Virus record (IMG/VR): IMGVR_UViG_3300027971_000028
Span: 62,001 to 126,000 of that record
Strand: one strand, 5' to 3'
DNA from: a virus
Length of the DNA stretch: 64,000 nt
Below, in pieces: positions 1,278-49,389 of this stretch. Position 1 is the first letter of the stretch. Every line of letters starts with the position of its first letter. The notes beneath the pieces are model-generated. The model was not told the DNA's origin. It saw only the letters and a program-made list of their open reading frames with translations, and ran no database searches. The position numbers were made by a program, and so were the translations under genes.

Positions 1278-2057
1278 ATGAGTGAGATCCAACGCTCTCT
1301 TACGGTTATGGTGTACGGAGAAAGCAAGGTAGGTAAATCTACTTTTGCTGTAACTGCTCCATACCCACGACTCATGCTTGACGTCGAGGGTGGGCACCGA
1401 TTCCTACCTATCGTTGTTAAGTATTGGGATCCTCTTCGCGAGGAACCACCAATCGCTGATGGAACTTGGGACACTGTTGTAGTTACAGTTCGTGACTATG
1501 ACACTGTTATTAAGGTTTATCAGTGGTTACAACTTGGAAAGCATCACTTCAAGAGTTTGATTATTGATTCAATCTCTGAACTACAAGTTAAATGTATGGA
1601 CAGCATCGCAGGTACAGAACAAATGAAGATGCAACAGTGGGGCGAACTTCTTCGTCACATGGGTGGGCTTCTTCGTGATCTTCGCGATCTAACTATGCAT
1701 GCTACAAATCCTCTTGAAGCAGTTGTACTTACTGCTATGTCAAGAACAAGCCAGGATGGAAGACACCGTCCATATCTACAAGGTCAACTAGCAATTCAAG
1801 CACCATATTTTTACGACATTCTTGGTGCGTTGACAGTAGAGCAAATGGCAAATCCAGATCCACTACAACCTCCTTATAAAGTAAGGCGTATGTATGTGGA
1901 AAGAACAAACGATTATGAGGCTGGCGAGCGAGTACAAGGTCGTCTAGGTTCTATAGTCGAGCAAGACAAGTTATCAATTGAAGTAATGCTTAATACCATT
2001 TTTGGAACTAAGCAAAATACTCAAGATAAAACAACTAAAGAAAAGAAAGAGGTATAA
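1278..2057 (+). CDS. Sak4-like RecA-type ATPase (AAA_24)
   Basis: 259 aa. The Walker A motif is near the N-terminus (YGESKVGKST, about residues 12-21). A Walker-B-like hydrophobic stretch ending in Asp follows (SLIIDSI, about residues 93-99). This pattern and length fit phage nucleotide-binding proteins of the Sak4 type, RecA-core single-strand annealing/recombination ATPases that work with a single-strand binding protein. The next gene is a good candidate for that partner. A purine-rich RBS lies just before the ATG. Confidence 0.8.
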   Translation: MSEIQRSLTVMVYGESKVGKSTFAVTAPYPRLMLDVEGGHRFLPIVVKYWDPLREEPPIADGTWDTVVVTVRDYDTVIKVYQWLQLGKHHFKSLIIDSISELQVKCMDSIAGTEQMKMQQWGELLRHMGGLLRDLRDLTMHATNPLEAVVLTAMSRTSQDGRHRPYLQGQLAIQAPYFYDILGALTVEQMANPDPLQPPYKVRRMYVERTNDYEAGERVQGRLGSIVEQDKLSIEVMLNTIFGTKQNTQDKTTKEKKEV

Positions 2058-5751: not shown

Positions 5752-6276
5752 ATGTGGAAACCAGCAGAAAGCCTTAGATGGCAGAGTGAAGCCTTATGCG
5801 CTAAACCATCAAATAAAAAATATTTAGACTGGTTCTTTTCTAAAGATTTTTCTCAAAAATATGATGCTAAAAATTTATGTTTCTCCTGCCCTGTGAGAAA
5901 AGATTGTTTACAGTGGGCTTTAGAGCACAGACAAATTTGGGGAATATGGGGAGGCAAAGATGAAATTGAGATCCGCAGAACTCTTTCTGTTTCATATCTT
6001 GGAGAAGAGACTCGACGCCGTAGATACCCTAACTGTCCGTTCTGTACTGCTAGACCTGGCAAACTAGAAACATCTGTAGAAAAACTATCAACAACTGGAA
6101 GATGGACTACAGCAAAAATTGTTACCTGTACCGAGTGTGGCTTTGCTTGGAGAAGTAGAACTAGCGCCAATGCAGTAGAGGCGTATAAGGCTGAGAAAAT
6201 TGATAAAGCAGCCAAGTTAGAGAAGAAAAAAGAGAAATTAAGGAAGAAAAACAAGCGTAAAAAAGCAGTTTCATAG
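5752..6276 (+). CDS. WhiB domain fused to a C-terminal zinc ribbon
   Basis: 174 aa. Residues 1-75 form a WhiB domain: a first Cys in EALCAKP, then LCFSCPVRKDC and the IWGIWGGK turn. Residues about 92-135 add a zinc-ribbon-like unit, CPFC and, about 30 residues later, CTECGFAW. The tail (about 145-174) is very basic and helical and could bind nucleic acid. Usual WhiB proteins are about 80-130 aa, so the extension is notable. A promoter switch or sigma partner is likely; targets unknown. Confidence 0.88.
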   Translation: MWKPAESLRWQSEALCAKPSNKKYLDWFFSKDFSQKYDAKNLCFSCPVRKDCLQWALEHRQIWGIWGGKDEIEIRRTLSVSYLGEETRRRRYPNCPFCTARPGKLETSVEKLSTTGRWTTAKIVTCTECGFAWRSRTSANAVEAYKAEKIDKAAKLEKKKEKLRKKNKRKKAVS

Positions 6277-7561: not shown

Positions 7562-8242
7562 ATGACTCGCTCAATTATCTTAGTTCCATCTAGAACTAGA
7601 CCTAAAAGATTTGTTAAAGCAGTGGACTCTCTAAGATATCACTCAACTGTTTCGGACATAGTTGCTTGCTTAGATGAGGATGATCACGCTTTATATCCAA
7701 GGATGCAGGGTATTAAGTATGAGATAGGACCTAAACCAGAGCAGTTAGGTGTAAATGAAAAACTAAATCGCATGGCAAATAAGTATATGGACGAGTATGA
7801 CTACATTCTTTGGGCAGCGGATGACACGACTGTTATGACACCTAAGTGGGATGAAAACCTTATTAATGCAATAAAAGATGTGCCTATGGGCATCTCATAC
7901 CCAGATGATTTGGCTCAAAGGGCTCTTTTACCTAGCAACGGAACTTGTTTTGATTCAAATATTGTAAAAACACTTGGATACCTAGCCCCTCCTGAGTTAT
8001 TACATTTATATATAGATAATTTTTGGAAACTACTAGGAGATGCTATGCAGACTCTTAGATACTGCCCTGAAGTTATCTTAGAACATCACCACTACGCAGT
8101 TCGCAAGGCACCTTCTGATGATTTATATGCTGCGATAAACTCTCCTTGGATGTATGAGCGAGATAGGAATGCTTTGGCTAAATATAAGATGACAAATTTT
8201 CAGAGTGATATTACAAAACTAAAAGAGGCAATTAACAAATGA
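7562..8242 (+). CDS. GT-A-type glycosyltransferase-like protein
   Basis: 226 aa. GT-A nucleotide-sugar features: IILVPSRTRPKRF at the N-terminus, a strand ending in the acidic motif YILWAADDT (about residues 76-84, DxD-like) and a later HHH cluster (LEHHHYAVRK). It probably moves a sugar from a nucleotide donor to an unknown acceptor. The ATG is 6 bases after a TAAAAT box, so the message may be leaderless. It overlaps the epimerase start by 4 bases (ATGA), which supports one pathway. Confidence 0.65.
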   Translation: MTRSIILVPSRTRPKRFVKAVDSLRYHSTVSDIVACLDEDDHALYPRMQGIKYEIGPKPEQLGVNEKLNRMANKYMDEYDYILWAADDTTVMTPKWDENLINAIKDVPMGISYPDDLAQRALLPSNGTCFDSNIVKTLGYLAPPELLHLYIDNFWKLLGDAMQTLRYCPEVILEHHHYAVRKAPSDDLYAAINSPWMYERDRNALAKYKMTNFQSDITKLKEAINK

Positions 8243-9243
8243 AAGTATTAGTAACTGGTGTAGCAGGGTTTATGGGCAGTCATTTAGCAGATGCTTTTCT
8301 TGCTAAAGGCTACGATGTTGTGGGAATAGATAATTTACTAGGTGGATATGAAGAAAATGTACCTTCAGGTGTTGATTTTCATAATATAGATTTAGATAAT
8401 TTAGAACTAATCCAACCTCTTTTCAAAGATGTAGATTTAGTAGTTCATACTGCTTGTACTGCCTATGAAGGGCTATCCGTATTCTCTCCGTCTCTAGTTG
8501 TTAGAAATACCATGCAAATAACAACAAACATAATGAGTGCTTGCGTAAAGGCTAATGTTAAAAAAATTGTTCATCTATCTTCTATGGCAAGGTATGGCAC
8601 TCAGGATGTAGTTCCCTTTGTTGAGTCAATGACCCCTAAGCCTCAGGATCCGTATGGAATTGCAAAGTATGGGGCTGAACTTATGATTAAAAATATTGCA
8701 GACACTCACGGACTTAATTATGTAATACTTGTTCCACACAACATTATTGGCCCTAGACAAAAATTTGATGACCCTTATAGAAACGTAGCCTCTATTATGA
8801 TAAATAGAATGCTTCAAGGTAAGCAACCTATTATCTATGGAAATGGCGAGCAAAAAAGATGTTTCTCATTTATGCAAGATGTCACTGATCCACTTATGAT
8901 TGCATGTGAGACTGATGTTGCTGATGGTCGAATTGTTAATATTGGTCCAGATGAAGAGTTTGTTACCATAAATGAACTAGCTCAGAAACTATCAATAATT
9001 CTTGATTTTAAGTTAGATCCAATTTATATGCCAGGAAGACCTCAAGAAGTATTTCACGCTAACTGCTCAGCCAATCTAGCAAGAGAACTTTTAAACTACA
9101 AAACCACTACCTCATTAGAGTCTGGATTAGTAGAACTAGTAAACTGGATTAAATCTAAGGGCGCTAGGCAGTTTAATTACCACCTGCCTCTAGAGTTTGT
9201 TACTGATAAAACTCCAAAAACTTGGACAGACAGGCTTATGTAA
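8239..9243 (+). CDS. NAD-dependent sugar epimerase/dehydratase (SDR)
   Basis: 334 aa, extended SDR. Rossmann glycine motif VTGVAGFMGSH (about residues 5-15), NAD-side Asp (VVGIDN), catalytic YGIAK pair (YxxxK, about residues 138-142) and the VNIGPDEE substrate region. Close in layout to UDP-glucose 4-epimerase and related UDP/dTDP-sugar enzymes. It would make the sugar nucleotide, perhaps UDP-galactose, used by neighbouring transferases. Its 3' end overlaps the convergent transferase by 8 bases. Confidence 0.85.
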   Translation: MKVLVTGVAGFMGSHLADAFLAKGYDVVGIDNLLGGYEENVPSGVDFHNIDLDNLELIQPLFKDVDLVVHTACTAYEGLSVFSPSLVVRNTMQITTNIMSACVKANVKKIVHLSSMARYGTQDVVPFVESMTPKPQDPYGIAKYGAELMIKNIADTHGLNYVILVPHNIIGPRQKFDDPYRNVASIMINRMLQGKQPIIYGNGEQKRCFSFMQDVTDPLMIACETDVADGRIVNIGPDEEFVTINELAQKLSIILDFKLDPIYMPGRPQEVFHANCSANLARELLNYKTTTSLESGLVELVNWIKSKGARQFNYHLPLEFVTDKTPKTWTDRLM

Positions 9244-10102
9244 AACTAGTAATAGATTTATATTTTTCTGTTCTATTTTCTTTATTTTTTAAGTAATTAA
9301 ACCACCACCTAGAGGCCCCAAGATTCTCACTCAAGGTAAGGACTCCATATATAGTTCTGTTGTCTATGTATTGAGTAATCCCTTTATCTCTAGCCGAGTT
9401 AGAAAAAACCATATACTCCCAGCGGTCTGACTGCTCTAGATAATTAAGTTCAGATAGGTACTCTCTTTTAATCAGATAAGTGCAGTGAACACACATGCAT
9501 TCAATTAACCCTCTTACCTCTTGATTTAAAATTTTGTAGTAAATATCTTCTGCAATAATTGACCCAAAGTCATCTACTTTGTCGTGGTAGTTTGAGTAGT
9601 ACCTGCTCATATGACCTTCTCGCTTAGCAGCCTCTATAGGAGTATCAGCGTTTTCTCCAAGCGCAACCGCATACCTTAAGAAGGGAGCAACTATAGGTAA
9701 GTCTAGTTTTACTAACTCTTTAAGAGTTTCTGGGAACAAGAAGTTGTCGGTATCTACTACAAAATAATACTCGCAATCTGTGAGTAAGGCTTGATTCATA
9801 CTTTCTTGACGAATTTTTCCTAGAACCCTAAATCTTTCCCCATTCCAGAAATGAACATCATACTGCTCTACCTTCTCTGGAACATCTTCGCTGTTATAGA
9901 TTAATCCTTTATATTTATCACCGTACTCTTCTACCCACTCTTCTAAAAGTTGTTTTGTGTTATCTGTGTTGTTATTAGTTCTTATGTAGATAAATATGTT
10001 TTCTTTAGGATAGTCCCAATCATTTAAACTTTCTAAAAAAAGTGGAAGAACTGCTTCTTTTTGTTTTACAAGAAGGGCTAAGAATACGTTTGGCTGTGTC
10101 AT
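9236..10102 (-). CDS. Collagen-galactosyltransferase-like (GT25/PLOD-type) glycosyltransferase
   Basis: 288 aa. The N-terminal 200 residues closely follow the first GT domain of eukaryotic COLGALT/PLOD enzymes as I remember it: FLALLVKQKEAVLPLF, WDYPKENI, NNNTDNTKQLLEEW, then GKIRQESMNQAL and the metal motif VVDTDNF (DTD about residues 117-119), followed by LPIVAPFLRY. Family members transfer galactose to hydroxylysine of collagen. Here the obvious acceptors are the phage's own Gly-X-Thr fibres. ATG at 10102 is favoured (TGATG with the upstream stop) over TTG at 10105. Confidence 0.75.
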   Translation of the reverse strand: MTQPNVFLALLVKQKEAVLPLFLESLNDWDYPKENIFIYIRTNNNTDNTKQLLEEWVEEYGDKYKGLIYNSEDVPEKVEQYDVHFWNGERFRVLGKIRQESMNQALLTDCEYYFVVDTDNFLFPETLKELVKLDLPIVAPFLRYAVALGENADTPIEAAKREGHMSRYYSNYHDKVDDFGSIIAEDIYYKILNQEVRGLIECMCVHCTYLIKREYLSELNYLEQSDRWEYMVFSNSARDKGITQYIDNRTIYGVLTLSENLGASRWWFNYLKNKENRTEKYKSITSFT

Positions 10103-11139
10103 CAAATGCCTTGACGGTAGAAAACTAGGTTGTTTTTTAATCTAGTCTCACTTGGATTTCCCTTAAGGGCGCTTTCTCCATACTCTACTGCTTTTTCTTT
10201 ATCTCCTAAATTATGAGCAGATAAGGCTCTCATATCATCTAGCATCCAGTTCCATAGCGCTTCAGATGATAAATAATGTTTAGTTGGTTCACACTTAGCA
10301 ACTAACTTACAGGTCTCCCAGACGCCACCCCAGTCGGATTGTTCATAGTAACAACGTACTTTTTCATAATAAGCCTCACCGCATGGGTCAATTGATATTG
10401 CTTTATCTGCCCAAGTATGTGCCTCTTCAAGTCTTCCTAAATTTCTACATGCTTCAGATGCAAATCTGCAAACTGCTGCACGCTCTATGTACCAGTCTTT
10501 ACTAAATTCAGTAACCTTTTCAGCACTACTTATTACTAACTCCCACATTCTGTAGTAGTAATACTCACGGCAAAGGTAGACCCAGATTCTGTGATCTTCT
10601 CCAAACTCTTTACTTGCTGCCACAAGCATTGTCATATATTGACCACGAGACTTTGTATTATCTGGCTTGTGATACATCTTGGTAGGAATAGTGCAACTCA
10701 TTAGAGGTGTATCAAGGGATGGAACAAATACTTCATGAATAGGGTACTTCCAATAAATACCGTCTCTAGCGTGCAAACGAGCACCGAGCCAAGTGTGACC
10801 AGTATCAAAATCACACCAGCCTTTGTTAGCACCAGGTGCCCAATGTTCTTTTACTTTTTTAAAAAAATCTTCATCTACTGTCTCATCTAAATCTAAACTT
10901 AAACAGACATCTATATCGGTTGGTAATAGGCTTTGAGCAGTATTTCTTGCAACATCAAATCTCCAAGGTTTTACACTTATTTCATAGACAATAATGCCAT
11001 TACTTCTTAGTATCTCTACCGTTTTATCTGTAGATCCTGTGTCACAAACCAATCTAAAATCTGCATTTTTAGTAGTATCTGCCCACCGCTGGGCGTGCTT
11101 CTCTTCATTTAAGGCAATAGCGTAGGCAGCAACTTTCAT
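10102..11139 (-). CDS. GT2 glycosyltransferase with TPR-like C-terminus
   Basis: 345 aa. GT2 core: AYAIALNEEKHAQRW, CDTGSTDKTVEIL, and the DxD motif SLDLDET (about residues 81-87). The C-terminal half (about 190-340) is made of helical pairs with TPR spacing (EEAHTWADKAISIDPCGEAY; SLGDKEKAVEYGES type), as in other TPR-GT2 enzymes, possibly for acceptor binding. Co-transcribed with the collagen-GT-like gene. The start is only 6 bases after a TATAGT box, so the message may be leaderless. Confidence 0.8.
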   Translation of the reverse strand: MKVAAYAIALNEEKHAQRWADTTKNADFRLVCDTGSTDKTVEILRSNGIIVYEISVKPWRFDVARNTAQSLLPTDIDVCLSLDLDETVDEDFFKKVKEHWAPGANKGWCDFDTGHTWLGARLHARDGIYWKYPIHEVFVPSLDTPLMSCTIPTKMYHKPDNTKSRGQYMTMLVAASKEFGEDHRIWVYLCREYYYYRMWELVISSAEKVTEFSKDWYIERAAVCRFASEACRNLGRLEEAHTWADKAISIDPCGEAYYEKVRCYYEQSDWGGVWETCKLVAKCEPTKHYLSSEALWNWMLDDMRALSAHNLGDKEKAVEYGESALKGNPSETRLKNNLVFYRQGI

Positions 11140-15327: not shown

Positions 15328-15861
15328 TTAGGAAATGTCGCCTACTACTAAAAACGTATTACTTGCTGTGCAGATTACTGCGGCTGAAGAGTATTGAACT
15401 CTTAACTTAGGCGCAGTTGCTGTAGCACCAGATGAGTTAATAGTTACTCCAGCCCCTTGAGCAAAACTAACCTGACCTGCTCCAGTTTGAGAAACGTTAA
15501 CAACATCATTAGCACTAAATACTGATGGAGGAATTGTAAGAGTAATTGCCGCAGCATTACTTAAAGTCACAAGATCATTAAGATCTCCTGCTTGTAAGGT
15601 ATAGGTTGTTCCAGTTACGTTATTAATAGCCAAAATAGCGCTAGCAGCACCTGTTGGTCCAGTTACTGTTGAGCCTGTAGTACCCGTAGCCCCTGTTGAG
15701 CCCGTAGGACCTGTTGGCCCTGTAGAACCAGTTGCCCCAGTAGAGTAAGGAACAGTCGAACGAACGACCTCCCAAACGGTACCGTTCCACTTCCAAACAC
15801 GGTTGCCAACGGTATGGGTATCGTTGACGGACGGGGAGTTTGGAAAATCTATTGCTGGCAT
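15328..15861 (-). CDS. Short collagen-like tail protein
   Basis: 177 aa. N-terminal fibre-attachment motif [14 protein letters not shown] ... WKWNGTVWEVV (about 5-34), a short Gly-X-Thr collagen-like run (about 42-72), then a beta domain ending LRVQYSSAAVICTASN, shared with the C-ends of 21292 and 24453. Looks like a minimal version of the longer fibres. Good RBS (aggagg). Confidence 0.8.
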   Translation of the reverse strand: MPAIDFPNSPSVNDTHTVGNRVWKWNGTVWEVVRSTVPYSTGATGSTGPTGPTGSTGATGTTGSTVTGPTGAASAILAINNVTGTTYTLQAGDLNDLVTLSNAAAITLTIPPSVFSANDVVNVSQTGAGQVSFAQGAGVTINSSGATATAPKLRVQYSSAAVICTASNTFLVVGDIS

Positions 15862-19811: not shown

Positions 19812-21173
19812 TTATCCGAATATTTGTGCGGCTAGTATTGGTTGGTCATTGTCTGCTGATGGTACTGTCACTGCTGCCCACTCAAGGCCACCTGTGGCCG
19901 CTGAGTTAGCTTTTAGATAGTAATCATTAGTTCCTACTGCAAGTCTACCAATTGTGTCAGCGGCAGTACCTACAAGTAAGTCACCTTTTGCATCAATTGT
20001 AGTTGAAAGAACTGCGTTTGCTACGTTATAGGCACCAATTGCAAGTATCTCAACAATGTCATTAACAGCAAGAGCGGAAAGGCTAGCAATTGAGGTGCCA
20101 TTACTTGCGGTGTAATCTGTTCCTCTTACAAGTAAAACACCGTTAAGAAATACTTGCTCATAGCCTGCCGTGTATGCAAGTGTTACTGAGTTTGCATCTG
20201 CTCCAGAAACTCCAGTTTCACCACCTGCGGCTACAAAACGATATCTAGTTAAAGTTGCAGTACCAGTAGGTCCTGTAGGTCCAGTACCTCCAGTGCTTCC
20301 TGTAACACCAGTTGGCCCTGTAGGACCTGTATTTCCAGTAGGTCCATCATTAGCACTCGCTGCCTCTACCCAATAACCATCATAATAAATATAAACATTT
20401 CCTGAAGATGCGTCATACCATGCGTCCCCCGCCTCAGGTGCGGCAGGTGGAGTTGTTGCAACTGTTGAGAATTGACCATCATCTCCAGTTATACCTGTTG
20501 CACCCGTATTTCCAGTTGCACCAGTTAAACCAGTTGCTCCCGTTAATCCTGTTGCACCAGTATTACCTTGCGCTCCTGTATTACCAGTTACACCAGTATT
20601 TCCAACTGCTCCAGTTGCACCCGTATTACCAGTCGGACCATCATTTGCTGAGGCTGCCTCTACCCAATAGCCATCATAATAAACATATAAATTTCCACTT
20701 GCAGAGTCATACCATGCATCCCCAACTTCGGGGGATGCTGGTGGAGTTGTTGCGGCTACGCTAAATTGACCGTCATCTCCAGTTACACCAGTCTGTCCAG
20801 TTACACCTGTTGGACCTGTAGGTCCTGTACTACCTTTACCTGAAAGTAAATCCCACCTTGCAGAGGAACCAGGAATGTGTGAAGCAATATCACCACTTGC
20901 AATAAATGTGTTACAAAAATATGTACTGCCGTTGTATTGAACTACATCACGGACATTATATTCAACAAAATCAAAGGCTGCTCGCCAATTTATACCTGTT
21001 ATACCAGTAGGCCCAGTACTTCCAGTTACACCCGTAGGTCCAGTCTGACCAGTAGCACCCGTTGGGGCTAAATCACGGACTACTTTCCATGCGGTACCGT
21101 TCCAACGCCAAGTAGTATTACCAGAGGTAAATGTACTATTTACGCTAGGACTATTAGGAAAATCTATAGGCAT
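19812..21173 (-). CDS. Collagen-like tail fibre with duplicated inserts
   Basis: 453 aa. N-terminal attachment motif ([30 protein letters not shown]), Gly-X-Thr segments at about 35-60, 117-130, 180-230 and 280-303, and two near-identical inserts ([19 protein letters not shown] and [19 protein letters not shown]). C-terminal beta domain (about 305-453). Y positions of the collagen triplets are almost all Thr. The TTG/ATG-proximal region has an RBS. Acceptor candidate for the GT25-like enzyme. Confidence 0.85.
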
Positions 21174-21291: not shown

Positions 21292-23439
<2,148 letters not shown>

Positions 23440-24452: not shown

Positions 24453-27917
<3,465 letters not shown>

Positions 27918-27928
27918 TTAGCCCCTCC

Positions 27929-30193
<2,265 letters not shown>

Positions 30194-37405: not shown

Positions 37406-39109
37406 ATGCCCATTCTAGGAACGCAAGCCTCACAAAACACTAAATCATTCTTAGGTCTTGCTGTTGATTATTTAGTTGTTGCTGGTGGTGGTAGCGGAGG
37501 CTATTCTGGTGGCAATCCAAATGGTGGCGGTGGTGGTGGAGCAGGTGGTATGCGCTCTACAGTTACTGCTACTGGCGGTAGTGGTTCTTTAGAATCTGCT
37601 TTAACTTTATCTTTGAATACTAATCACACAGTTACGGTTGGTGCAGGTGGTGCTGGTGGTGTTGTTGTTGCCAATGGTAATAATTCAGTTTTTGCAACAA
37701 TTACTTCAACTGGCGGTGGTAGCGGTGCAGATTGGATTGCCCCAAACATAACACAAAATGGCAATGCTGGCGGTTCAGGTGGTGGCGGTACAGGCGGTTC
37801 AGGCTATACACCTCACGGCACAGGCGGTGCTGCTTCTCCTGCTGGTCAAGGTTTTGCAGGTGGTAATGCTTCAGGTACAGGTGGAAGTACAGCATCTGGC
37901 GGTGGTGGCGGTGGCGCTAGCGCAGTTGGAACTAATGGCGCAAGTGGCGCAGGTGGTTCAGGTGGTGATGGTAGAGCAACATCAATAAGTGGTTCATCAG
38001 TTACTTACGCTGGCGGTGGTGCATCTACTGGAACAAGTAGTGGTGGTACTGCAGGAACAGGTGGCGGCGGAACTGTAGGAAGTGCTGGAACCGCTAATAC
38101 AGGTGGCGGTGGAGGCGGTAGTTCTACAGGTAATAGTGGCAACGGCGGCTCAGGAGTTGTAATTGCACGCTACGCGGGAACTGAGCAAAAAGCATATGGC
38201 GGAACTGTAACAACATCTGGTGGAAATACAATTCACACATTTAATTCATCAAGTTCTTTTTATACAGGTTCTCCTAAAGCAAGTGGTGGAACAATTAGTT
38301 TTGCTAGTGGATATTTTTATCACGCATTTACATCGACTGGATCCTTTACTCTTACTCCGTCCGAGGCTTTAACTGTTGATGTTTTGGTAATCGCAGGTGG
38401 TGGTGGTGCTGCTGGTTATATATCCTCAGGATACGCAGGGTCATCAGGTGGTGGCGCTGGAGGTTTATTAAATTTTGCATCTGAAAGTCTTACAGCAAAT
38501 GCAGGATATACCGTAACTGTTGGCGCTGGTGGCGCTGGCGGAACAGCCAATACAAATAATGGTACTTCGGGTACTAATTCTCGATTTGGTAGTTTAACTA
38601 CAGTAGTCGGTGGTGGTTACGGCGTAAATAGATATGTAGCAGGTGGTGCACTTGCTGGTGGTAACGGTGGTTCAGGCGGAGGAGGTGCTGGAACTGCTGG
38701 TGGTTCTCCAACATCAGGGCAAGGAAATAGCGGTGGAAGTGCGATAGCAGTCAATGGTACTGGTGGAGGCGGAGGTGCTGGCGCCGCTGGTGGAAACTCA
38801 ACAACCGATAATGGTGGTAACGGTGGTGCTGGCATAAATACATATTCAACTTACGCAAGTGCAACCTCTACTGGAGTAAGTGGTTATTACGCAGGTGGCG
38901 GAGGCGGAGGAGTATACGCAAACGGAACTCCAGGTACAGGCGGCTCAGGTGGCGGTGGCAGTGCTGGCAGTAACTCTGCTGGTGTATCAGGAACCGCGAA
39001 CACAGGCGGTGGTGGTGGTGCGGCTAGTTATGCAAGCGGTATGGGAACTGTAAATGCAACAGGAGGCGCTGGTGGTAGCGGTTTAGTTATTGTTAGGTAC
39101 GCAGTCTAA
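37406..39109 (+). CDS. Double polyglycine tail adhesin
   Basis: 567 aa. Begins MPILGTQASQNTKSFL, the shared anchor peptide, then a first glycine-rich domain (about 20-255, end GSGVVIARY) and, after a beta hairpin (GGTISFASGYFYHAFTSTGSF), a second one (about 310-567, end GGSGLVIVRY). Same architecture as 45445 and 47654 on the other strand. Likely receptor-binding protein. Confidence 0.8.
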   Translation: MPILGTQASQNTKSFLGLAVDYLVVAGGGSGGYSGGNPNGGGGGGAGGMRSTVTATGGSGSLESALTLSLNTNHTVTVGAGGAGGVVVANGNNSVFATITSTGGGSGADWIAPNITQNGNAGGSGGGGTGGSGYTPHGTGGAASPAGQGFAGGNASGTGGSTASGGGGGGASAVGTNGASGAGGSGGDGRATSISGSSVTYAGGGASTGTSSGGTAGTGGGGTVGSAGTANTGGGGGGSSTGNSGNGGSGVVIARYAGTEQKAYGGTVTTSGGNTIHTFNSSSSFYTGSPKASGGTISFASGYFYHAFTSTGSFTLTPSEALTVDVLVIAGGGGAAGYISSGYAGSSGGGAGGLLNFASESLTANAGYTVTVGAGGAGGTANTNNGTSGTNSRFGSLTTVVGGGYGVNRYVAGGALAGGNGGSGGGGAGTAGGSPTSGQGNSGGSAIAVNGTGGGGGAGAAGGNSTTDNGGNGGAGINTYSTYASATSTGVSGYYAGGGGGGVYANGTPGTGGSGGGGSAGSNSAGVSGTANTGGGGGAASYASGMGTVNATGGAGGSGLVIVRYAV

Positions 39110-39118
39110 TTTTAAAAA

Positions 39119-39295
39119 ATGAAATATATAACTAAAAAATTAAATATAGACACCTTTTTATCTATACTTATAGCATCCTTATTTCTTATTCTTTTTTCAA
39201 ACCAATCTATGCGTCAAATACAGGTTGATTTTTGGGTAAATAATCCAAATCTAAATCCAGCAAATGGTCACATTAATACAACTAGTTTTAGATAG
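39119..39295 (+). CDS. Small membrane protein after adhesin
   Basis: 58 aa. Basic start (KYITKKLN), one membrane segment (about 12-28, FLSILIASLFLILFS) and a polar tail. Like 47295, it follows a double-polyglycine adhesin and has the same TM-then-polar layout. No clear RBS. Converges on the terminase gene after 5 bases. Confidence 0.55.
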   Translation: MKYITKKLNIDTFLSILIASLFLILFSNQSMRQIQVDFWVNNPNLNPANGHINTTSFR

Positions 39296-39300
39296 ATTTA

Positions 39301-40719
39301 TTAGTTAGCCTTAAAAACCCTAGATCCACCACCTCTACCACCCATACCTCCTCTAAAACTTGGAAGTCTTCTGGCGGCGGGAGATTTTGCGGTTAATTTT
39401 CCACCAATAAATCCTTTAGGTGGTTTAATAAGTAGAGCCGTTAAAGCATGAACTAGAGCATCTACTCTATCTGGAGATTTTCCTTCACCAGGAATCCATG
39501 CAGTCATTTGATCTTCTAACTCTGCAATGTATCCAATATGGTGAACTCTTTCTTGTTCATATGCAAGAACTACTGGCTCTGCTCTAAGTTGTTTTCCATG
39601 TTTAGAGTGAACTTCAAATACTTTTACATTTGGGTCAATAGCATTAATAGCATTAGTAACTAAGGCTCCACCCTGATTTACCTCTGCTACAACTGGTGCT
39701 CCCCAACGCCTAGCCATCTCTACAACTTTATTTGCCCAAACTTCAGGAGAACCATGAATAGTTGCATCCTCTAAAACCCAAGCGTGACGTTTATATAAAT
39801 CTCTATCTGCAGTTGATGCAACTACAACAATTCCACAAGCATCTCGTGGGTTCTCCGCTACGGATGGGTCAACTCCAATAACTCTTAAAGGAGTGTGTGG
39901 TGGTAAAACATTTTGTCTAGCCTTACTTATCATCTCTATTGTCCATAGTGCACCTTCAATAGAATCAAGCATCTCTCCATAAAGTTCCTGCTTTGCTAAT
40001 CTTGTTCCTTCATACACTCCCAAAATTGTGTCTAAATATGCAGAGCTTAAGTTTCCAGAGTTGTCCATAGTAGATCCTCTAGTAACAACAACTTTACTAC
40101 CTTTCTTTTCTTCTTCTAATAAAGAATAAAGAAGTGATACACGCTTTGGAGTTGTTGTAATCATAATTTGTGGATTAGCACCTAAACGAGTTCCAACACG
40201 TAAGTTATCAAAAGCAGTCATACCAGCAGCATCTGGAGTCTGGCGCCATGCAGCTACTTCATCCCCCCAAGCGTGGGTGAATTGCGGACCACGAAGTGAG
40301 TCTGGCTCATCTGCTGTAAAACAGGTAGCCGTATTTCCATTAGGCCAAGTTAAACGACGTTTAGATGGTTCATATAATGGACGCTCACTTGGTGGAGTCA
40401 CATTCATAATTCCTGATTCACCTTCAACAAGAACGTCACGTACATCTGCTGCAGTACGAGCAACAAGTGCAAAACGTCTTTGACCAGTGTTTGTATACTT
40501 TGCTGTTTCTCTTACCCACTCAGCCGCTGCTCTTGTTTTTCCAGCACCGCGACCAGCAAGATAAATCCAAATATTCCAATCACCCTCTGGTGCTTGTTGT
40601 TCTGGACGTGCCCATGAATGCCAATCCCAGAGAAGCATCTCTGGATCTAAGTCCGCCAATACTGCAGCTTTTTCTTCTGGAGATAAAAGAGATATCTTCT
40701 CCATAAAACTTTGTCCCAT
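39301..40719 (-). CDS. terL: Terminase large subunit
   Basis: 472 aa. Walker A AGRGAGKT (about 54-61), Walker B-like HAWGDEVAAW, and an RNase-H-fold nuclease start VIGVDPSVAENPRDACG (about 282-298) and DRVDALVHALT near the end. ATP-driven packaging motor with headful or cos nuclease. C-terminal tail is Gly/Arg rich. Starts 2 bases after 40722. Confidence 0.93.
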   Translation of the reverse strand: MGQSFMEKISLLSPEEKAAVLADLDPEMLLWDWHSWARPEQQAPEGDWNIWIYLAGRGAGKTRAAAEWVRETAKYTNTGQRRFALVARTAADVRDVLVEGESGIMNVTPPSERPLYEPSKRRLTWPNGNTATCFTADEPDSLRGPQFTHAWGDEVAAWRQTPDAAGMTAFDNLRVGTRLGANPQIMITTTPKRVSLLYSLLEEEKKGSKVVVTRGSTMDNSGNLSSAYLDTILGVYEGTRLAKQELYGEMLDSIEGALWTIEMISKARQNVLPPHTPLRVIGVDPSVAENPRDACGIVVVASTADRDLYKRHAWVLEDATIHGSPEVWANKVVEMARRWGAPVVAEVNQGGALVTNAINAIDPNVKVFEVHSKHGKQLRAEPVVLAYEQERVHHIGYIAELEDQMTAWIPGEGKSPDRVDALVHALTALLIKPPKGFIGGKLTAKSPAARRLPSFRGGMGGRGGGSRVFKAN

Positions 40720-40721
40720 AC

Positions 40722-41189
40722 TTAAACTTTACTCGCTCTATTAAGACTTCTTTGTACTCCATAATATAAAGGAGCAGCCGAATTTAGTCCCAATCCTTTT
40801 GCTAAATCTTGTAATGAGAATCCATTTATATACTCTTTTGTAAGTTGATTGTGGTAGAAAACAGATCCACCATTTTCTTTTGCTGTTTTTATTCTTTCTA
40901 TTGCATTAGGTAGCTCTGATTTATCTGCTGTTCTTTCTTGCACAATATCTGATATAAATACTTTTTCCATAATAATTCTACGTCTAACTCCTGGGTACGC
41001 AACTTTAAGTACTCTTGCTAATTCTGGAACATTTCCGCCTAAAGAAGAGAATTCAACTAAAAGTCTTGTGTACTCTCTACTTGCTCTATGAGCAGGAGTG
41101 TCTTGTTTTCTTGAGCCGTAAGCCTTTTTTGCCAGTGGAAAAAGTGCTTCAATTTTAACTTTATATTGGGCTACTAACTCTGAATTCAT
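40722..41189 (-). CDS. Putative small terminase-like DNA-binding protein
   Basis: 155 aa. All-helical with two HTH-like parts (GGNVPELARVLKVAYPGVRRR and GFSLQDLAKGLGLN). Directly upstream of terL and of typical small-terminase length, so it probably recognises the packaging site; no decisive family motif was seen. Confidence 0.6.
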   Translation of the reverse strand: MNSELVAQYKVKIEALFPLAKKAYGSRKQDTPAHRASREYTRLLVEFSSLGGNVPELARVLKVAYPGVRRRIIMEKVFISDIVQERTADKSELPNAIERIKTAKENGGSVFYHNQLTKEYINGFSLQDLAKGLGLNSAAPLYYGVQRSLNRASKV

Positions 41190-41252
41190 TGATCTCCATT
41201 ATGCTTGTACTTATTGTATCTATAGCATACTAGAGTTTTTATACTGTGGGTT

Positions 41253-41429
41253 TTACGACTCGTCTTCTCTATGTCGAATAGGATAAGTTACTGCCCAAGC
41301 AACAAGAGTTCCAATAATGCTCCAGCCAACAATTGTTTTTGCTGAACCATCTAGCACTACCCAAGCAATGAACATACCTAGTAAGGTCCAAAGCTGATCT
41401 ATCATGTCAGTAATTACTCTTCTTATCAT
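41253..41429 (-). CDS. Small two-segment membrane protein, holin-like
   Basis: 58 aa. ATG overlaps the stop of 41426 (ATGA). Two likely membrane segments: LWTLLGMFIAWVVL (about 14-27) and TIVGWSIIGTLVAWAV (about 33-48), with a short charged C-end (RHREDES). Size and topology fit a class II holin, but a second holin candidate lies at 61608. Easily missed by gene finders. Confidence 0.6.
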   Translation of the reverse strand: MIRRVITDMIDQLWTLLGMFIAWVVLDGSAKTIVGWSIIGTLVAWAVTYPIRHREDES

Positions 41430-44104
41430 GGCTTTCTTCTCCGTATTCTTGGGTCTCCCATTGCTCCACCAGCAGACCCACCACCACTTGGGGTGCTAGG
41501 TGCACTTCTAGTACTGCTTACTGCGTTGGCTGCGACTCCTACTGCATTGATAGCAGCGTTACTAGCAATAATTGCTGATACAACCATTTTCTCTGACTCT
41601 TCTCTTTCTTCCTCGCTCATATCTGCTCCAATATTTAATACGGCCATAACTGCTTGACCTGGGTCATTAAATATTGCGCCAACAAATTCAGAAGGAGACT
41701 CCAACACCTGTAGCGCTGCAGCAACCTCTGCGATAATTATAACATCGTTACCATTTTCATCTTTTCTAACTTCTACAGGGGTAGTTGCTGGAAGATCCTC
41801 GTATGTTAATCCAGCATCTTGTATGTTTTCTTTAGTAACTGCTTCTCCCTCTGCTGCTGTAATTAATGCTTCTGCCACTAAATCTCTCTCTGCTTCTGTA
41901 AATGTCCCATCTTCAGTCAATGCTTCTGATAAGTTATTTACTTCAGAGTTTGTAATATCACCATCTGACATTAATGCATCTATGATCAACTCGGACTCGG
42001 CTGAAGATAGACCATTTTCAGATATAAGGCTATCTACTAGTGCAGTCATTTCTTGATTAGTAACTACTCCATCTGAGGTAAGTGCATCTATAACCAGTGC
42101 TGCCTCTATTGCAGTTATCCCGCCATCTGTTAAATTAGAAGCCAAGTCAGATATTTCACTCACTGAAATGACCCCGTCGGATATCAATGCTTCTAATACT
42201 GCTTCAGCATCTGATGCACTAACTGTTCCGCTATTAATCAAATCTTCAACAACATTTTGAACCTCTTCAGCAGTCATATCTGCTAGATCTGTAGGTACCT
42301 CATCTACTGGAATCTCTGTAGGAATCTCTGTAGGAATCTCTGTAGGAATCTCTGTAGGAATCTCTGTAGGAATCTCTGTAGGAATCTCTGTAGGAATCTC
42401 TGTAGGAATCTCTGTAGGAATCTCTGTAAACGGATTGTAGACTGGCTCATAGGTTGATCCACCAATATTTAAACTTGCACTAGAAAAAGGTATTGAAACT
42501 ATGATTTCTGAGTACTCACTTAATGGACCAGACCAGTTAGCAACTCTAACTGTGTAGGTAACACCTGGTGTTAAACCACTTAACTCGATGGATGCTGGAG
42601 CACCATCTGTATTTAATGTTTGACCAGCATATGGGTTTGCAGCGGTTAGATCTTGAGTAACAACTTGATAAAACCAAGTATTTGCCTCAAAACCAGTTGG
42701 CATTTCTGCCTCTATATACATAAATGTTCCAACTGCAGGTGCTGAAATTATTGGTGCTGGTGTAGGAATGTTGTTATTAATAGCAGATATTAGTTGACCT
42801 GATTTAGTGTTTAATGATGATTGAAGAGATGTTTTTGTTGACACCGCTGAATTCACGGTGTTAGTTAAAGATGTTGTATTGATTGCATTTATATTAGAAG
42901 TATTTGTAGTGTTTTGAGCAACTACTGGTGTAAGACTTTGATTTAGTTGAGCAATTGTTGCGTTTGCTGCGTCTACTGCTGCTTGAACTGTTTCTGTATT
43001 TGGATCTACATAAGGTGTAAAGGCAGGACCTTGGCTTATTTGTCCAGCAAACCCAGTGCCAACATTGGTGTCTGTAATGCTATTAATAGTTCCATTTGTA
43101 GTTTCTCTATAATTAAATCTTGCTTGATTGGGTATTGGTCCAATAGCAGTAACATTTGCTTGCCAAGCGCCGTTGACTGGATTTACATCAGCATTAAATC
43201 TTACTTGAGCCATTTGCGTAGAGGCATCTTGTTGCGGAAATGGACGAAGATCCCAAGCAATATCTAAACTTGTTCCAGTAGTTGCATAAGTAATTCCTGT
43301 TCCTGTACTCCAGGTTGTCCAGTCCCATCCTGCTATAGAGATAGAGGGTGCAGTGGGTGTGCTCCAGTAGTTGCTACCTTCATTTACTCCAAAGGTAATA
43401 GTTGCATTACTTCCAACATACACATTGTGGTAAAGCGTTCCGCCCATTAATAAATCAAATGGTAGGTTCATAATAACACCCACATCATCTACGTTAGATA
43501 AAACATTTGTACTCGTCCCAATAGTGGCTTGCAAACTATTAACTGCTGTTTGAGCATTATCAATTGCAATATTGGCTTGAGTTAACTCAGTTTGGGCAGT
43601 TGCTTGTGCTGTAGATGCTGCTGTTTTTGCTGTAGTAACTTGAGATATTTCAGTTTGTGCTGTGGTAACAGTAACACTGTCTATTGCTGTTTGAGCAGTT
43701 GTAACAGTTGCCTTAGCATCTTGAACTATTTGTGAACTTTGATCTATAGGAGTAGCAGTTAAATTTACAGCGTTTATTGTTGCTATTGCTGTATCTACCA
43801 AGGCTACACTTGTTTGCGCACTAGTTACTGATTGAGTAACTGTAGAAACTGCAGCCTGAGCCTGACTTAACTCAGTTTGGACATTTGTTACTACTGCTGT
43901 GGCTGTGTCTGTGGCTGCAACTGCTTGTTGAACTTCTGTAGTAGCAGTTGCAAGAGCCGTATTAACTGCCTGTTGAGCAGGGCTAACAACAACTTGTTCT
44001 TGGTTATCGGAAGCCTTGGCATGGTTTGGTGACATTATTGAAAAAACTGTAATGCATAGGCTTATCCCAAGAAACAATAAAAATCTGCGTTTAAAATTAA
44101 TCAA
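41426..44104 (-). CDS. Large secreted repeat protein
   Basis: 892 aa, TTG start at 44104 behind a GGGGGA RBS. Sec signal peptide (about 1-31). Ala/Thr/Val-rich coiled coil (about 35-200, 375-450), a beta domain (about 205-360; NVYVGSNATITFG) and an Fn3-like domain (about 455-550). Ten TEIP repeats (about 560-600) lead to about seven 18-20 residue repeats (SDGVITNQEM type) with EF-hand/dockerin-like Asp-Gly-Ile/Val. Tail is Gly/Pro/Arg. Could be a virion-surface or host-surface protein. Confidence 0.7.
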   Translation of the reverse strand: MINFKRRFLLFLGISLCITVFSIMSPNHAKASDNQEQVVVSPAQQAVNTALATATTEVQQAVAATDTATAVVTNVQTELSQAQAAVSTVTQSVTSAQTSVALVDTAIATINAVNLTATPIDQSSQIVQDAKATVTTAQTAIDSVTVTTAQTEISQVTTAKTAASTAQATAQTELTQANIAIDNAQTAVNSLQATIGTSTNVLSNVDDVGVIMNLPFDLLMGGTLYHNVYVGSNATITFGVNEGSNYWSTPTAPSISIAGWDWTTWSTGTGITYATTGTSLDIAWDLRPFPQQDASTQMAQVRFNADVNPVNGAWQANVTAIGPIPNQARFNYRETTNGTINSITDTNVGTGFAGQISQGPAFTPYVDPNTETVQAAVDAANATIAQLNQSLTPVVAQNTTNTSNINAINTTSLTNTVNSAVSTKTSLQSSLNTKSGQLISAINNNIPTPAPIISAPAVGTFMYIEAEMPTGFEANTWFYQVVTQDLTAANPYAGQTLNTDGAPASIELSGLTPGVTYTVRVANWSGPLSEYSEIIVSIPFSSASLNIGGSTYEPVYNPFTEIPTEIPTEIPTEIPTEIPTEIPTEIPTEIPTEIPTEIPVDEVPTDLADMTAEEVQNVVEDLINSGTVSASDAEAVLEALISDGVISVSEISDLASNLTDGGITAIEAALVIDALTSDGVVTNQEMTALVDSLISENGLSSAESELIIDALMSDGDITNSEVNNLSEALTEDGTFTEAERDLVAEALITAAEGEAVTKENIQDAGLTYEDLPATTPVEVRKDENGNDVIIIAEVAAALQVLESPSEFVGAIFNDPGQAVMAVLNIGADMSEEEREESEKMVVSAIIASNAAINAVGVAANAVSSTRSAPSTPSGGGSAGGAMGDPRIRRRKP
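42309..42428. repeat. Ten 12-bp tandem repeats
   Basis: Ten almost perfect copies of a 12-bp unit (aatctctgtagg on the plus strand), coding TEIP on the minus strand. The copies are nearly identical, which suggests recent slippage; copy number may vary. Confidence 0.9.
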
Positions 44105-44139
44105 TCAGCGTCCCCCAGGGGTAGGGTTTTATATCTTAT

Positions 44140-44175
44140 TAATTTAGTTTTTTACTAAATTATCCCTTAATTATA
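44140..44175 (-). promoter_or_regulatory. -10 box and leader hairpin for the secreted protein
   Basis: TATAAT on the minus strand at 44170-44175, followed by a perfect 9-bp hairpin (44140-44148 with 44154-44162). A CCCCAGGGG palindrome nearer the start could pair with the RBS. No -35 is clear. Confidence 0.5.
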
Positions 44176-44186
44176 CTTTATTTTGT

Positions 44187-44837
44187 TTATTTCCTTAAAT
44201 AAATATGTCGTACAGTTGATGGATACCACTTAACTCCGCCTAAAACTGTATTTATTCCTTCGCTGTTAAGTTTTTCTGCTATTGCTTTATAAGAAAGACC
44301 TAAAGTTCTCTCAGATAATATTCTCTCTGATATTGATTTTTCAACTAAAGGCAGTGGTCCTAAGTCAACTCCCCATACTTTTTTATTATCACGTCTATCT
44401 TGATGAACATCTTTTTGGCGAAGTGAAATCATTCCTCTTTCCATCTCTGCCATGGCACTCATTATGGTTACTACAAACCGTCCCTGGTAGGTAGCAGTAT
44501 CTAAACCAAGATCAAGAAGTGCTAGACGCCATCCGTATTTATGTGAACGATCAACAATGCTAAGAAAGTCTCTAGTAGAACGAGCAAGTCTGTCAAGACG
44601 TGTGACGAACAAAGCCTCTGCTTCACCTTTATCAAGACTCTCTAATGCAGCAGTTAATACAGGTCGCCCAGTTATGTTCTTACCTGAACGACCCTCTTCA
44701 CGAAGCATTTCTACTTCATACCCCTGAGACTCCGCTGCATACTTAAGTTGCTTTTCTTGGGCATCTAGACTCACCCCATCGTCAACCTGCATCTGAGTAG
44801 ATACTCTTGCATAGCAATAGGCTATTTTTTTATCCAC
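44187..44837 (-). CDS. Serine recombinase (resolvase/invertase type)
   Basis: 216 aa. Catalytic domain with the nucleophile in ARVSTQ (Ser about residue 13), REEGRSGK, RLDRLARS (about 79-86) and helix E region (AMAEMERGMISLRQ). C-terminal HTH (YKAIAEKLNSEGI). Close in size to Tn3 resolvases and Gin/Hin invertases, far smaller than large phage integrases. Inverted tail-gene copies flank it on both sides. Could flip or resolve cassettes. Confidence 0.88.
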   Translation of the reverse strand: MDKKIAYCYARVSTQMQVDDGVSLDAQEKQLKYAAESQGYEVEMLREEGRSGKNITGRPVLTAALESLDKGEAEALFVTRLDRLARSTRDFLSIVDRSHKYGWRLALLDLGLDTATYQGRFVVTIMSAMAEMERGMISLRQKDVHQDRRDNKKVWGVDLGPLPLVEKSISERILSERTLGLSYKAIAEKLNSEGINTVLGGVKWYPSTVRHIYLRK

Positions 44838-45070
44838 TAGGAGATTTCCTGATATCTATATATTTGTTTAAATAACAGCCCAACTGCTAACAGATCATCT
44901 AATTGACCTATAACTGGAATAAAATCTGGTATTAGATCAATTGGAGACACTATATACAAAAGTAAAACTATTATGGATAGTTTTCCTTTTAGTGGAGTTT
45001 TTGAGGATTTAACCACTTTTATAATATCTTTAATATTTAAAGGTAGTTTTTTAAACAAACTATTCTTCAT
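44837..45070 (-). CDS. DUF1232 (YkvA-like) membrane protein
   Basis: 77 aa. YIVSPIDLIPDFIPV (about 38-52), the DUF1232 core, flanked by hydrophobic stretches; N-terminal part basic. Function unknown in any host. Overlaps 44837 start and 45060 by few bases. Confidence 0.75.
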   Translation of the reverse strand: MKNSLFKKLPLNIKDIIKVVKSSKTPLKGKLSIIVLLLYIVSPIDLIPDFIPVIGQLDDLLAVGLLFKQIYRYQEIS

Positions 45071-45302
45071 CCTTTACTACTCTAAGATTCTTAGTTTTAT
45101 TAAGATCTTTCATTAGTTTTTGATAAGTATCATCAAGTTTGCCTTTTTTAGGTTTTTTAATAAAAAAGCCAAGAAATGCTTTAATTAGAGAATATACAAT
45201 TGCTAAGCCAAAAAGTACTACTAAAACAACTAACCCCCAGCCAACAATTGCTACCAGCATTTGAAATGCTATTTCGAAGGGTTGTTTCCAGTCTACGCTC
45301 AT
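45060..45302 (-). CDS. Small membrane protein
   Basis: 80 aa from ATG 45302 (RBS gaggcag; the longer ORF to 45332 is less likely). One long hydrophobic segment (about 15-50) and a basic C-end. Overlaps the DUF1232 gene by 11 bases, so they are one unit. Confidence 0.6.
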   Translation of the reverse strand: MSVDWKQPFEIAFQMLVAIVGWGLVVLVVLFGLAIVYSLIKAFLGFFIKKPKKGKLDDTYQKLMKDLNKTKNLRVVKDEE

Positions 45303-45444
45303 TACTGCCTCTTTTCTGGGGATTTTCCCCACAAAAAGACTATATCACATACAGACTTAGACTTAAAACTGTACGTCTTATGCCTTCCCTTAGAGGGATT
45401 TCATAAGTGTCACATTGGACGATTTTGAAGCGTTTTACGCTTGT

Positions 45445-47199
45445 TTAGACTGCGTACCTTATTATAACGATACCTGAACCGCCTGCTGCACCTGCACAGC
45501 CATTACCTGAGCCAGCACCACCGCCACCACCAGTATTTGGTAATCCTGGCTCCGCATAACTTTCAGCATTAGCATTAAATACAGCATCACCACCGCCGCC
45601 ATTACCACCAGCACCTTGATTAGTTTTGTTTGGACCTCCAGTAGATGTTCCTGAGGCTCCACCGCCACCACCAGCGTACCAATAGGTTCCACTTACATTT
45701 TCGCCAGTTCCAGTCGCAACGCCCCAACTTGAGTATGCAGATGAACCAGCACCGCCATTACCACCTGCAGTACCTGTTGAAGCTTGTCCAACTCCTCCAG
45801 CTCCACCGCCGCCACCTGCTCTATCTACTTGATTACCACCAGCGCCACCAGCATAACCTTCTACCGGTGAATAACCGCCCGCGTTGCCACTTCCTCCAGT
45901 TCCAGAAATTCCATTTGCTCCACCACCTGAGCCACCTGAGCGACCTGAACCAGCACCATAAGAAGCAGCACCACCTCCACCAGTTGTACTTATTGTAGAA
46001 AATCCTGAGCCAGCAATAGAAGATGTAGTACCATCTCCTGCTTGTTGTCCATCAGTGTTGTTTCCAGCACCACCAGCGCCAACAGTAATTGTATAAGCAG
46101 TAGCGTTGTTGAATGACTGAGAAGTTAGTCCTCTAAGACCACCTGCTCCACCTCCACCACCAGTTCTTCCACCACCTCCGCCTCCTGCAATTACAAGAAC
46201 TTCTGCTCCTGTTATGTTTTGACTTGGAGTAAATGTTTCTGACTTAGAAAAATAATGATACCAATAAGTACCATCTACACTAATTGAGCCACCCGTGGCT
46301 TTTGGAGAATTAGTTGCTGAAGCTGCAGACAAAATTCCTGTCGATGTGAATGTGTGAATTGTCTTGCCGTCTTGTGAAGTTACAGTTCCACCAGTTCTTA
46401 CTTGTGGGCCTGCATAACTAATAATTACTAAACCTGAGCCACCACTTCCTCCGGTATAACTAGCACCATACTCACCGCCACCTCCGCCTCCACCGCGATT
46501 TTCAGTGCCTGATGTAGGAACATTACCAGTACTACCACCACTTCCACCGCCACCAGTACCACCAGCACCTCCACTTTGTCCATTGCTACTTCCACCACCT
46601 CCGCCACCTGCGTAGGTAATTGATGAACCACTAATTGAAACTGCTACACCTGCGCCACCAGGAGCGCCTGCACCACTAATTTGTGTGCCAGCTGCCCCTG
46701 CTCCTCCGCCAGAGCCGCCGCCGTAAGCAATATTGTAACTTCCTGCGTAAGAGCTACCTCCGTTATATCCTTGATTAGCTACTCCAAAACCATACCTGCC
46801 ATAACGAGCATGAGTAGCACCACCACCACTACCTCCGTGCATTGTGCCATTAACATCTACATCATTACCAACAGCGCCACCGCCGCCGCCACCGCCATAA
46901 GCAACAATGTTAGCGAATGATGAGTTTTCCCCTACAAAACCATTTCTGCTACCAGTACTAGCACCGGCGCCACCTGCACCTACTACTACAAGATAATTAA
47001 CATTGTTCAAAATATCTATTTTTGACTCTAAAGAACCGCCACCACCGCTTGCAGTTACAGTTGAACGTAAACCACCAGCACCTCCGCCACCTGCGGCGTT
47101 ATGCCCACCGCCACCTCCGCCTGCAACAACAAGGTAGTCAACAGAGACAGATAAAAATGATTTAGTATTTTGAGATGCTGCTGTTCCTAGAATTGGCAT
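45445..47199 (-). CDS. Double polyglycine tail adhesin
   Basis: 584 aa. MPILGTAASQNTKSFL start, glycine-rich domains about 20-265 (end GSGLVIISY) and 320-584 (end GGSGIVIIRY), separated by a beta hairpin (GTYWYHYFSKSETF). Same build as 37406 and 47654. Under promoter copy 3. Confidence 0.8.
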   Translation of the reverse strand: MPILGTAASQNTKSFLSVSVDYLVVAGGGGGGHNAAGGGGAGGLRSTVTASGGGGSLESKIDILNNVNYLVVVGAGGAGASTGSRNGFVGENSSFANIVAYGGGGGGGAVGNDVDVNGTMHGGSGGGATHARYGRYGFGVANQGYNGGSSYAGSYNIAYGGGSGGGAGAAGTQISGAGAPGGAGVAVSISGSSITYAGGGGGGSSNGQSGGAGGTGGGGSGGSTGNVPTSGTENRGGGGGGGEYGASYTGGSGGSGLVIISYAGPQVRTGGTVTSQDGKTIHTFTSTGILSAASATNSPKATGGSISVDGTYWYHYFSKSETFTPSQNITGAEVLVIAGGGGGGRTGGGGGAGGLRGLTSQSFNNATAYTITVGAGGAGNNTDGQQAGDGTTSSIAGSGFSTISTTGGGGAASYGAGSGRSGGSGGGANGISGTGGSGNAGGYSPVEGYAGGAGGNQVDRAGGGGGAGGVGQASTGTAGGNGGAGSSAYSSWGVATGTGENVSGTYWYAGGGGGASGTSTGGPNKTNQGAGGNGGGGDAVFNANAESYAEPGLPNTGGGGGAGSGNGCAGAAGGSGIVIIRYAV

Positions 47200-47218
47200 A
47201 TTACTCCTTAAAGATAGT

Positions 47219-47267
47219 TAATTATACCTTGATTTTAAAAACTCGTTTTTTCGCGCTCTCGTTCCGT
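47219..47267 (-). promoter_or_regulatory. Repeated tail promoter element, copy 3
   Basis: Minus strand: ACGGAACGAGAGCGCG, AAAAAAC, AT stretch, TATAAT at 47221-47226; spacer 25 bases, one more than most copies. Drives 45445. Confidence 0.8.
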
Positions 47268-47345
47268 TAAAAGAAAAAGAGGAGGCAGCAGGGTTTAGGA
47301 GGGAAGGATTAGGAAGGAGTAGGGATTGAGGGGGGAGGTTTTTTG
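47268..47345 (-). promoter_or_regulatory. C/T-rich, G-poor tract upstream of promoter copy 3
   Basis: On the transcribed (minus) sense this is an almost pure pyrimidine, C-rich stretch that also codes the last residues of 47295. Similar tracts sit before the other copies: about 35872-35909, 49354-49389, 50345-50420, 54060-54110, 55114-55138, 56814-56855 and 57230-57275. Possible Rho-loading site. Confidence 0.4.
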
Positions 47346-49285: not shown

Positions 49286-49305
49286 GAAACTCCTTTAATT
49301 ATGCT

Positions 49306-49353
49306 TAATTATATCGCAGTTTGAAAACTCGTTTTTTCGCGCTCTCGTTCCGT
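49306..49353 (-). promoter_or_regulatory. Repeated tail promoter element, copy 4
   Basis: Minus strand: ACGGAACGAGAGCGCG, AAAAAAC, AT stretch, TATAAT at 49308-49313; 24-base spacing. Drives 47654 and 47295. Confidence 0.8.
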
Positions 49354-49389
49354 TATAGGAGGAAGAGGCAAAGATAAAAAGGGGGAGGG

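Follow-up and report, generated by a model that had tools for sequence, protein, structure and literature searches.

The collagen-like fibres of a freshwater phage are very probably glycosylated by enzymes that the phage itself encodes. We analysed a window of 64,000 nucleotides (positions 62,001 to 126,000 of the virus record IMGVR_UViG_3300027971_000028), with attention to the gene at 9236-10102 and its neighbour upstream on the same strand (Table 1). The window was taken from a record of 133 kb, which has a WhiB-like gene; such a gene is carried by freshwater actinophages (PMC10202952), and the source phage is a freshwater actinophage. The two genes encode a protein related to the GalT-N domain of the collagen galactosyltransferase COLGALT1 (GLT25D1) and a GT2 glycosyltransferase with tetratricopeptide repeats (GT2-TPR). 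Very probably the pair O-glycosylates Thr of the phage's own Gly-X-Thr fibres, because bacterial relatives are linked to Gly-X-Thr collagen genes, the domains are fused in bacterial proteins, and fibre composition co-varies with the type of glycosyltransferase. What the analysis shows is the linkage and the co-variation, together with homology, fold, motif conservation and the inseparability of the pair. A first-pass annotation made from the sequence alone had proposed a phage system acting on its own collagen fibres; this main point is well supported by the three lines named above, but its enzymology required correction and the GT2-TPR gene had been overlooked. No report of glycosylation of phage collagen fibres was found in the literature searched (open-licence papers).

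The reading frame of the GalT-N-like gene is complete (288 codons), with ATG at 10102 as the likely start and an open frame from TTG at 9236-10105 on the minus strand. By phmmer search of all PDB sequences with this single sequence, human COLGALT1 (E=1e-15) and human LH3 (PLOD3; E=8e-7) were detected and no other significant matches. A profile of 40 phage and bacterial sequences matched COLGALT1 over the whole domain (2.7e-42), followed by LH3 (2.5e-21) and mimivirus R699 (2.2e-9). The AlphaFold model of the protein (predicted local distance difference test, pLDDT, 93.9) gave the same order in the Foldseek search of PDB, with COLGALT1 at the top (E=4.5e-23, template-modelling score 0.77) and then LH3 and R699. 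COLGALT1 GalT-N is thus the closest solved relative by both sequence and fold, and the structure comparison suggested in the first-pass annotation bore out the resemblance. Other GT-A enzymes were well behind (TarS, 1.5e-10), and a better match to an unrelated glycosyltransferase family, which would have spoken against that annotation, was not seen. The match to the COLGALT1 and LH3 domain is far beyond chance. The protein has no PHROGs family, none of the deposited phage genomes in the collection encodes it by tblastn, and a contig scan for homologues with the single sequence found none, while the alignment query did.

The homologous part is the GalT-N domain of COLGALT1 and the accessory (AC) domain of LH3, and not the active galactosyltransferase domain. 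The phage protein stops after the GalT-N domain, and its match to PLOD is limited to residues 272-495 of LH3, which is the AC domain, without the N-terminal glycosyltransferase and C-terminal lysyl hydroxylase domains. The catalytic GT25 domain (PF01755) was not found in the 133 kb record or in five relatives, with detection in a Mesorhizobium genome (G003) as the positive control. By domain content, the protein is not a member of the COLGALT family, and the GalT-N domain is what both have in common. The presumed acceptor also differs, being Thr and not hydroxylysine, and Lys was not among the Y residues counted in the fibres of the window. Both LH3 AC and COLGALT1 GalT-N are reported to be catalytically inactive companions of active domains (PMC6082870; 2026 review PMC13382579 for GalT-N), so that 'collagen galactosyltransferase' activity cannot be inferred for the phage protein. 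The likeness to this enzyme noted earlier therefore holds for the nearest relative, but not for the domain that carries the activity.

The phage protein retains polar motif residues that were lost in the animal proteins. The key positions of its motifs DTDN (D118, D120 and N121) and HCTY (H207) are invariant in the family; the invariant D118-x-D120-N121, together with the GT-A neighbours in the fold search, indicates a GT-A fold with a DxD motif. Among 35 invariant positions of the phage and bacterial family, COLGALT1 retains 22, and LH3 15 of the 32 aligned. The positions missing are N121, H207, T209 and D248 for LH3 AC, of which the motifs are degenerate, and R42, N44, N45 and D248 for COLGALT1. 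DxDN, HxT and other polar positions are invariant or nearly so across the 40 family sequences, of which the identity goes down to about 38%. The domain thus seems to be intact in the phage protein and to have decayed in animals, and the phage protein is itself likely to be catalytic. An alternative, which is a variant of fibre glycosylation by the pair and not exclusive of it, is that only GT2-TPR is catalytic and the GalT-N-like protein serves as a non-catalytic partner for collagen recognition or dimerisation. Such a role was proposed for LH3 AC and COLGALT1 GalT-N, both reported inactive; in addition, the GalT-N-like protein always accompanies another glycosyltransferase in phages, and relatives manage with GT2-TPR alone. 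We regard this alternative as rather unlikely, since the phage and bacterial family keeps the DxDN, HxT and polar positions that LH3 AC and COLGALT1 have partly lost.

The two genes form a tight module. The stop codon of GT2-TPR and the start codon of the GalT-N-like gene overlap as TGATG, and both are on the strand of the fibre cluster, downstream of the fibre genes (located at about 12-30 kb of the window), with 4.2 kb between the GT2-TPR gene and the nearest Gly-X-Thr open reading frame. Apart from truncated contigs and the four most distant loci (L067-L070), every phage locus with both sites has the two genes side by side, even where the orientation of one gene is flipped, while flanking sugar genes vary. 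The GT2-TPR protein, for which the predicted model was of pLDDT 69, has the layout of SgtA of Clostridioides difficile, a GT-A domain followed by tetratricopeptide repeats; this comparison is by architecture and not by sequence. SgtA (358 residues, glycosyltransferase plus four C-terminal repeats) is a metal-dependent enzyme that in vitro transfers N-acetylglucosamine to Thr residues in collagen peptides of BclA3, and sgtA adjoins a Gly-X-Thr collagen gene (PMC7157674). Linkage to Gly-X-Thr collagen genes is likewise found for the phage GT2-TPR and its bacterial relatives. SgtA has no GalT-N-like partner as far as reported, and its substrate is a spore protein and not a viral one. By analogy with SgtA, GT2-TPR is the stronger candidate, compared with the GalT-N-like protein, for the first transfer of sugar to Thr. 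The epimerase gene convergent to the pair, considered in the first-pass annotation as the maker of the sugar donor, was rejected as part of the module: it is on the opposite strand and, as is the adjoining glycosyltransferase gene of phrog_14945, kept only in the closest relatives of the window.

As to the presumed substrates, the window includes six Gly-X-Y open reading frames, as counted before, of which five match Pfam Collagen; the sixth is short and without Pfam match. Thr occupies 77% of the Y positions in these fibres, so that 'almost every' Y position was a slight overstatement. The published mean of Thr at Y is 48% for Gram-positive bacteria and 32% for all bacteria (PMC8968730).

Homologues of the GalT-N-like protein with 40-50% identity are present in Mesorhizobium, Methylobacter, Methylobacterium, Rhodoblastus, Acidisoma, Paenibacillus and others. 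Many of these form the second domain of a protein after a GT2-TPR domain, and in Mesorhizobium GT25 follows as the third. One fused bacterial protein is collinear with COLGALT1 across GalT-N and GalT-C (404-803 to 11-427, E=1e-42), the order being GalT-N and then GT25 in both. The N-terminal domain of the fused protein matches the solved GmaR chain (2e-8), and the profile of phage GT2-TPR aligns with this bacterial domain over 323 columns (E=4e-10). Many of the bacterial homologues adjoin genes with Thr at 95-100% of Y positions.

The association was then quantified for 147 Mesorhizobium genomes, collagen being scored as (Gly-X-Thr)x10 runs. The GalT-N-like gene was present in 15 genomes, all 15 with such runs (Fisher 5e-8), and phage-type GT2-TPR in 30 others, 29 of which had Gly-X-Thr runs. 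For either family together, 44 of 45 genomes had the runs, compared with 9 of the 102 genomes that lack both (p=2.8e-27, a value that overstates independence because the genomes are related). A divergent Gly-X-Thr gene is located 1.2-2.3 kb from the GalT-N-like gene in 14 of 15 loci, the 15th ending at a contig edge; for phage-type GT2-TPR, the distance is 5.0-6.6 kb with a conserved divergent layout in all 22 Mesorhizobium loci examined. Among 288 random Alphaproteobacteria, (Gly-X-Thr)x6 was detected in 15 and the GalT-N-like gene in none. This low background and the recurrence in other genera argue against chance linkage. The two gene types were never found together in one Mesorhizobium genome, as if they were alternative cassettes for collagen glycosylation. 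By inspection only, giant Gly-X-Thr genes were seen beside a type I secretion-like ABC transporter and adaptor in several Mesorhizobium loci (such as L247, 3227-8811), with a GT2-TPR protein of 1260 residues encoded between these genes and phage-type GT2-TPR.

The bacterial linkage bears on an alternative role of the pair, the modification of the host cell surface or of phage DNA, to exclude superinfecting phages or to protect against nucleases, in which the fibre neighbourhood would be incidental. Both pair proteins fall in broad GT-A classes, and surface or DNA roles were suggested for glycosyltransferases of the related freshwater actinophages E7 and F5 (PMC10202952). We consider this role improbable, as it explains neither why both families are so strictly linked to Gly-X-Thr genes in Mesorhizobium nor why fibre Pro content follows glycosyltransferase type, as described below.

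Within the phage lineage, the WhiB-like gene marks a syntenic glycosyltransferase site. The deposited Actinomycetia phage DSL-LC01 from lake water has the same gene order as the window on the WhiB and RecA-like side; in this phage, which is in culture and has GT2-TPR of the lone type only, a tryptophan halogenase gene is located directly before GT2-TPR and after collagen genes (L230, 10433-12004). Where the sequence on the WhiB side exceeded 5 kb (44 loci), the pair was found in 9, a divergent GT2-TPR alone in 34, and neither in one, which is cut short. The lone GT2-TPR is 30-38% identical to the pair-type protein and is without GalT-N-like partner. Pro at X positions of the fibres was 2-15% in pair-bearing phages (11 records) versus 24-55% in relatives without the pair (10 records), with no overlap between ranges (U=0, p=6e-5), and reached 43-71% in the lone-type loci with fibres nearby. 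Thr at Y was 77% and 64%, respectively. Gly-X-Thr runs were present in 15 of 16 pair-bearing phages versus 16 of 22 relatives with the same terminase but without the pair (Fisher p=0.2), while the density of runs separated pair-bearing from other phages (p=7e-6). On a simple reading, the low Pro at X means either that glycosylated Thr replaces Pro as helix stabiliser or that the enzyme prefers a non-Pro X. In a phage tree based on the RecA-like marker, used instead of terminase because most pair-bearing contigs end before the latter, the pair was located in two separate clades (approximately unbiased test, p=0.008), one of which is nested among lone-type phages. Both clades have Pro-poor fibres.

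Several observations weigh against fibre glycosylation by the pair. Gly-X-Thr fibres also occur in 16 of the 22 pair-less relatives and hence do not require the pair. No Gly-X-Y gene was found within 6 kb of some bacterial homologues (such as L077, L088, L090, L093 and L094), and the GalT-N-like protein could, by analogy with the homologous animal domains, be non-catalytic. The contrast in Pro at X comes from two independent lineages, and may simply reflect an exchange of fibres along with glycosyltransferase genes. As another explanation, whole fibre-and-glycosyltransferase cassettes would be exchanged, and the linkage would reflect the joint inheritance of an enzyme and a fibre that are functionally unconnected. 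The pair sits at the edge of the fibre cluster, and the fibre regions of such phages are hypervariable islands (PMC10202952). The same enzyme-collagen linkage is found, however, in Mesorhizobium, Methylobacterium, Acidisoma, Rhodoblastus and Methylobacter with no phage cassette evident, and a functional disconnection of enzyme and fibre is thus very improbable. The Pro pattern would also result if fibres and enzymes had moved jointly in one cassette, which still ties both together.

For fibre glycosylation by the pair, we propose the following scheme. The minus-strand fibre cluster carries at its 3' end the translationally coupled genes for GT2-TPR and the GalT-N-like protein, and this module would O-glycosylate Y-position Thr of the Gly-X-Thr fibres in the host cytoplasm. 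The initial sugar is most likely attached to Thr by GT2-TPR, an enzyme built like SgtA. The GalT-N-like enzyme, which retains an intact GT-A donor site, would either add a second sugar or act as a partner that binds collagen. The probable function of the glycans is to take the place of proline in stabilising the triple helix; shielding or tuning of the fibres may be a further one. Catalysis, the order of action, the identity of the sugars and the effect on the helix are what we infer here. LH3 AC and the accessory domain of mimivirus R699, homologous to the phage protein, are likewise paired with a collagen-acting glycosyltransferase domain. By role, though not by enzyme family, the system is comparable to that of mycobacteriophages Che8 and Rita, for which phage-encoded glycosyltransferases are implicated in virion protein glycans, according to work as cited in PMC11256854; the target there is the major capsid protein, while collagen-like fibres are proposed here. 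More tentatively, the phage and bacterial family may represent the catalytically active form of an accessory domain that is inactive in animal and mimivirus collagen enzymes. The COLGALT1 architecture would then have originated in bacteria for Gly-X-Thr collagens and been inherited by eukaryotes, in which GalT-N decayed and GT25 took over.

Several other features of the window were observed. Four large glycine-rich genes (37406, 45445, 47654 and 49390, within 37406-50274) match phrog_2295; located on both strands and flanking the terminase, they form a repeated family with related N-termini. A protein of 892 residues (41426-44104, minus strand) has a signal-like N-terminus and a long PTEI tandem repeat, and adjoins a resolvase-like gene (44187-44837). 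A DNA cytosine methyltransferase is apparently split into two overlapping frames (51424-51972 and 51938-52666, minus strand), possibly by a frameshift or as a broken gene. The protein of 58943-59575 (plus strand) presumably resembles Mom-like phage DNA-modification proteins.

Table 1. Genes of the window considered in this study
Position	Strand	Feature	Basis
1278-2057	+	RecA-like/AAA_24 gene, marker for phage tree	domain match
5752-6276	+	WhiB-like gene, marks syntenic glycosyltransferase site in lineage	synteny
7562-8242	+	phage glycosyltransferase (phrog_14945), convergent to pair	PHROGs match
8239-9243	+	NAD-dependent sugar epimerase/dehydratase, convergent to pair	domain match
9236-10102	-	COLGALT1 GalT-N / PLOD AC-like putative glycosyltransferase, 288 residues, GT-A fold	searches, model, motifs
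10102-11139	-	GT2-TPR glycosyltransferase, 345 residues, N-terminal GT2, C-terminal TPR repeats, SgtA-like architecture	domain matches
15328-15861	-	short Gly-X-Thr protein, 8 triplets, all Thr at Y	triplet count; no Pfam match
19812-21173	-	collagen-like fibre, 41 triplets, 34 Thr at Y, presumed substrate	triplet count, Pfam Collagen
21292-23430	-	collagen-like fibre, 97 triplets, 64 Thr at Y, presumed substrate	triplet count, Pfam Collagen
24453-27914	-	collagen-like fibre, 100 triplets, 84 Thr at Y, presumed substrate	triplet count, Pfam Collagen
27929-30178	-	collagen-like fibre, 70 triplets, 54 Thr at Y, presumed substrate	triplet count, Pfam Collagen
54143-55045	-	collagen-like protein outside main fibre cluster, 31 triplets, 24 Thr at Y	triplet count, Pfam Collagen

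If the proposed scheme is true, phages post-translationally glycosylate their collagen-like adhesion fibres, which bears on host range and on how stable fibres are made without hydroxyproline in these abundant freshwater phages. The finding that a COLGALT1-collinear bacterial protein adjoins a Gly-X-Thr collagen gene ties bacterial collagen glycosylation to the animal enzymes. What the accessory domain does in animals, so far unsolved, thereby becomes directly testable with bacterial and phage proteins.
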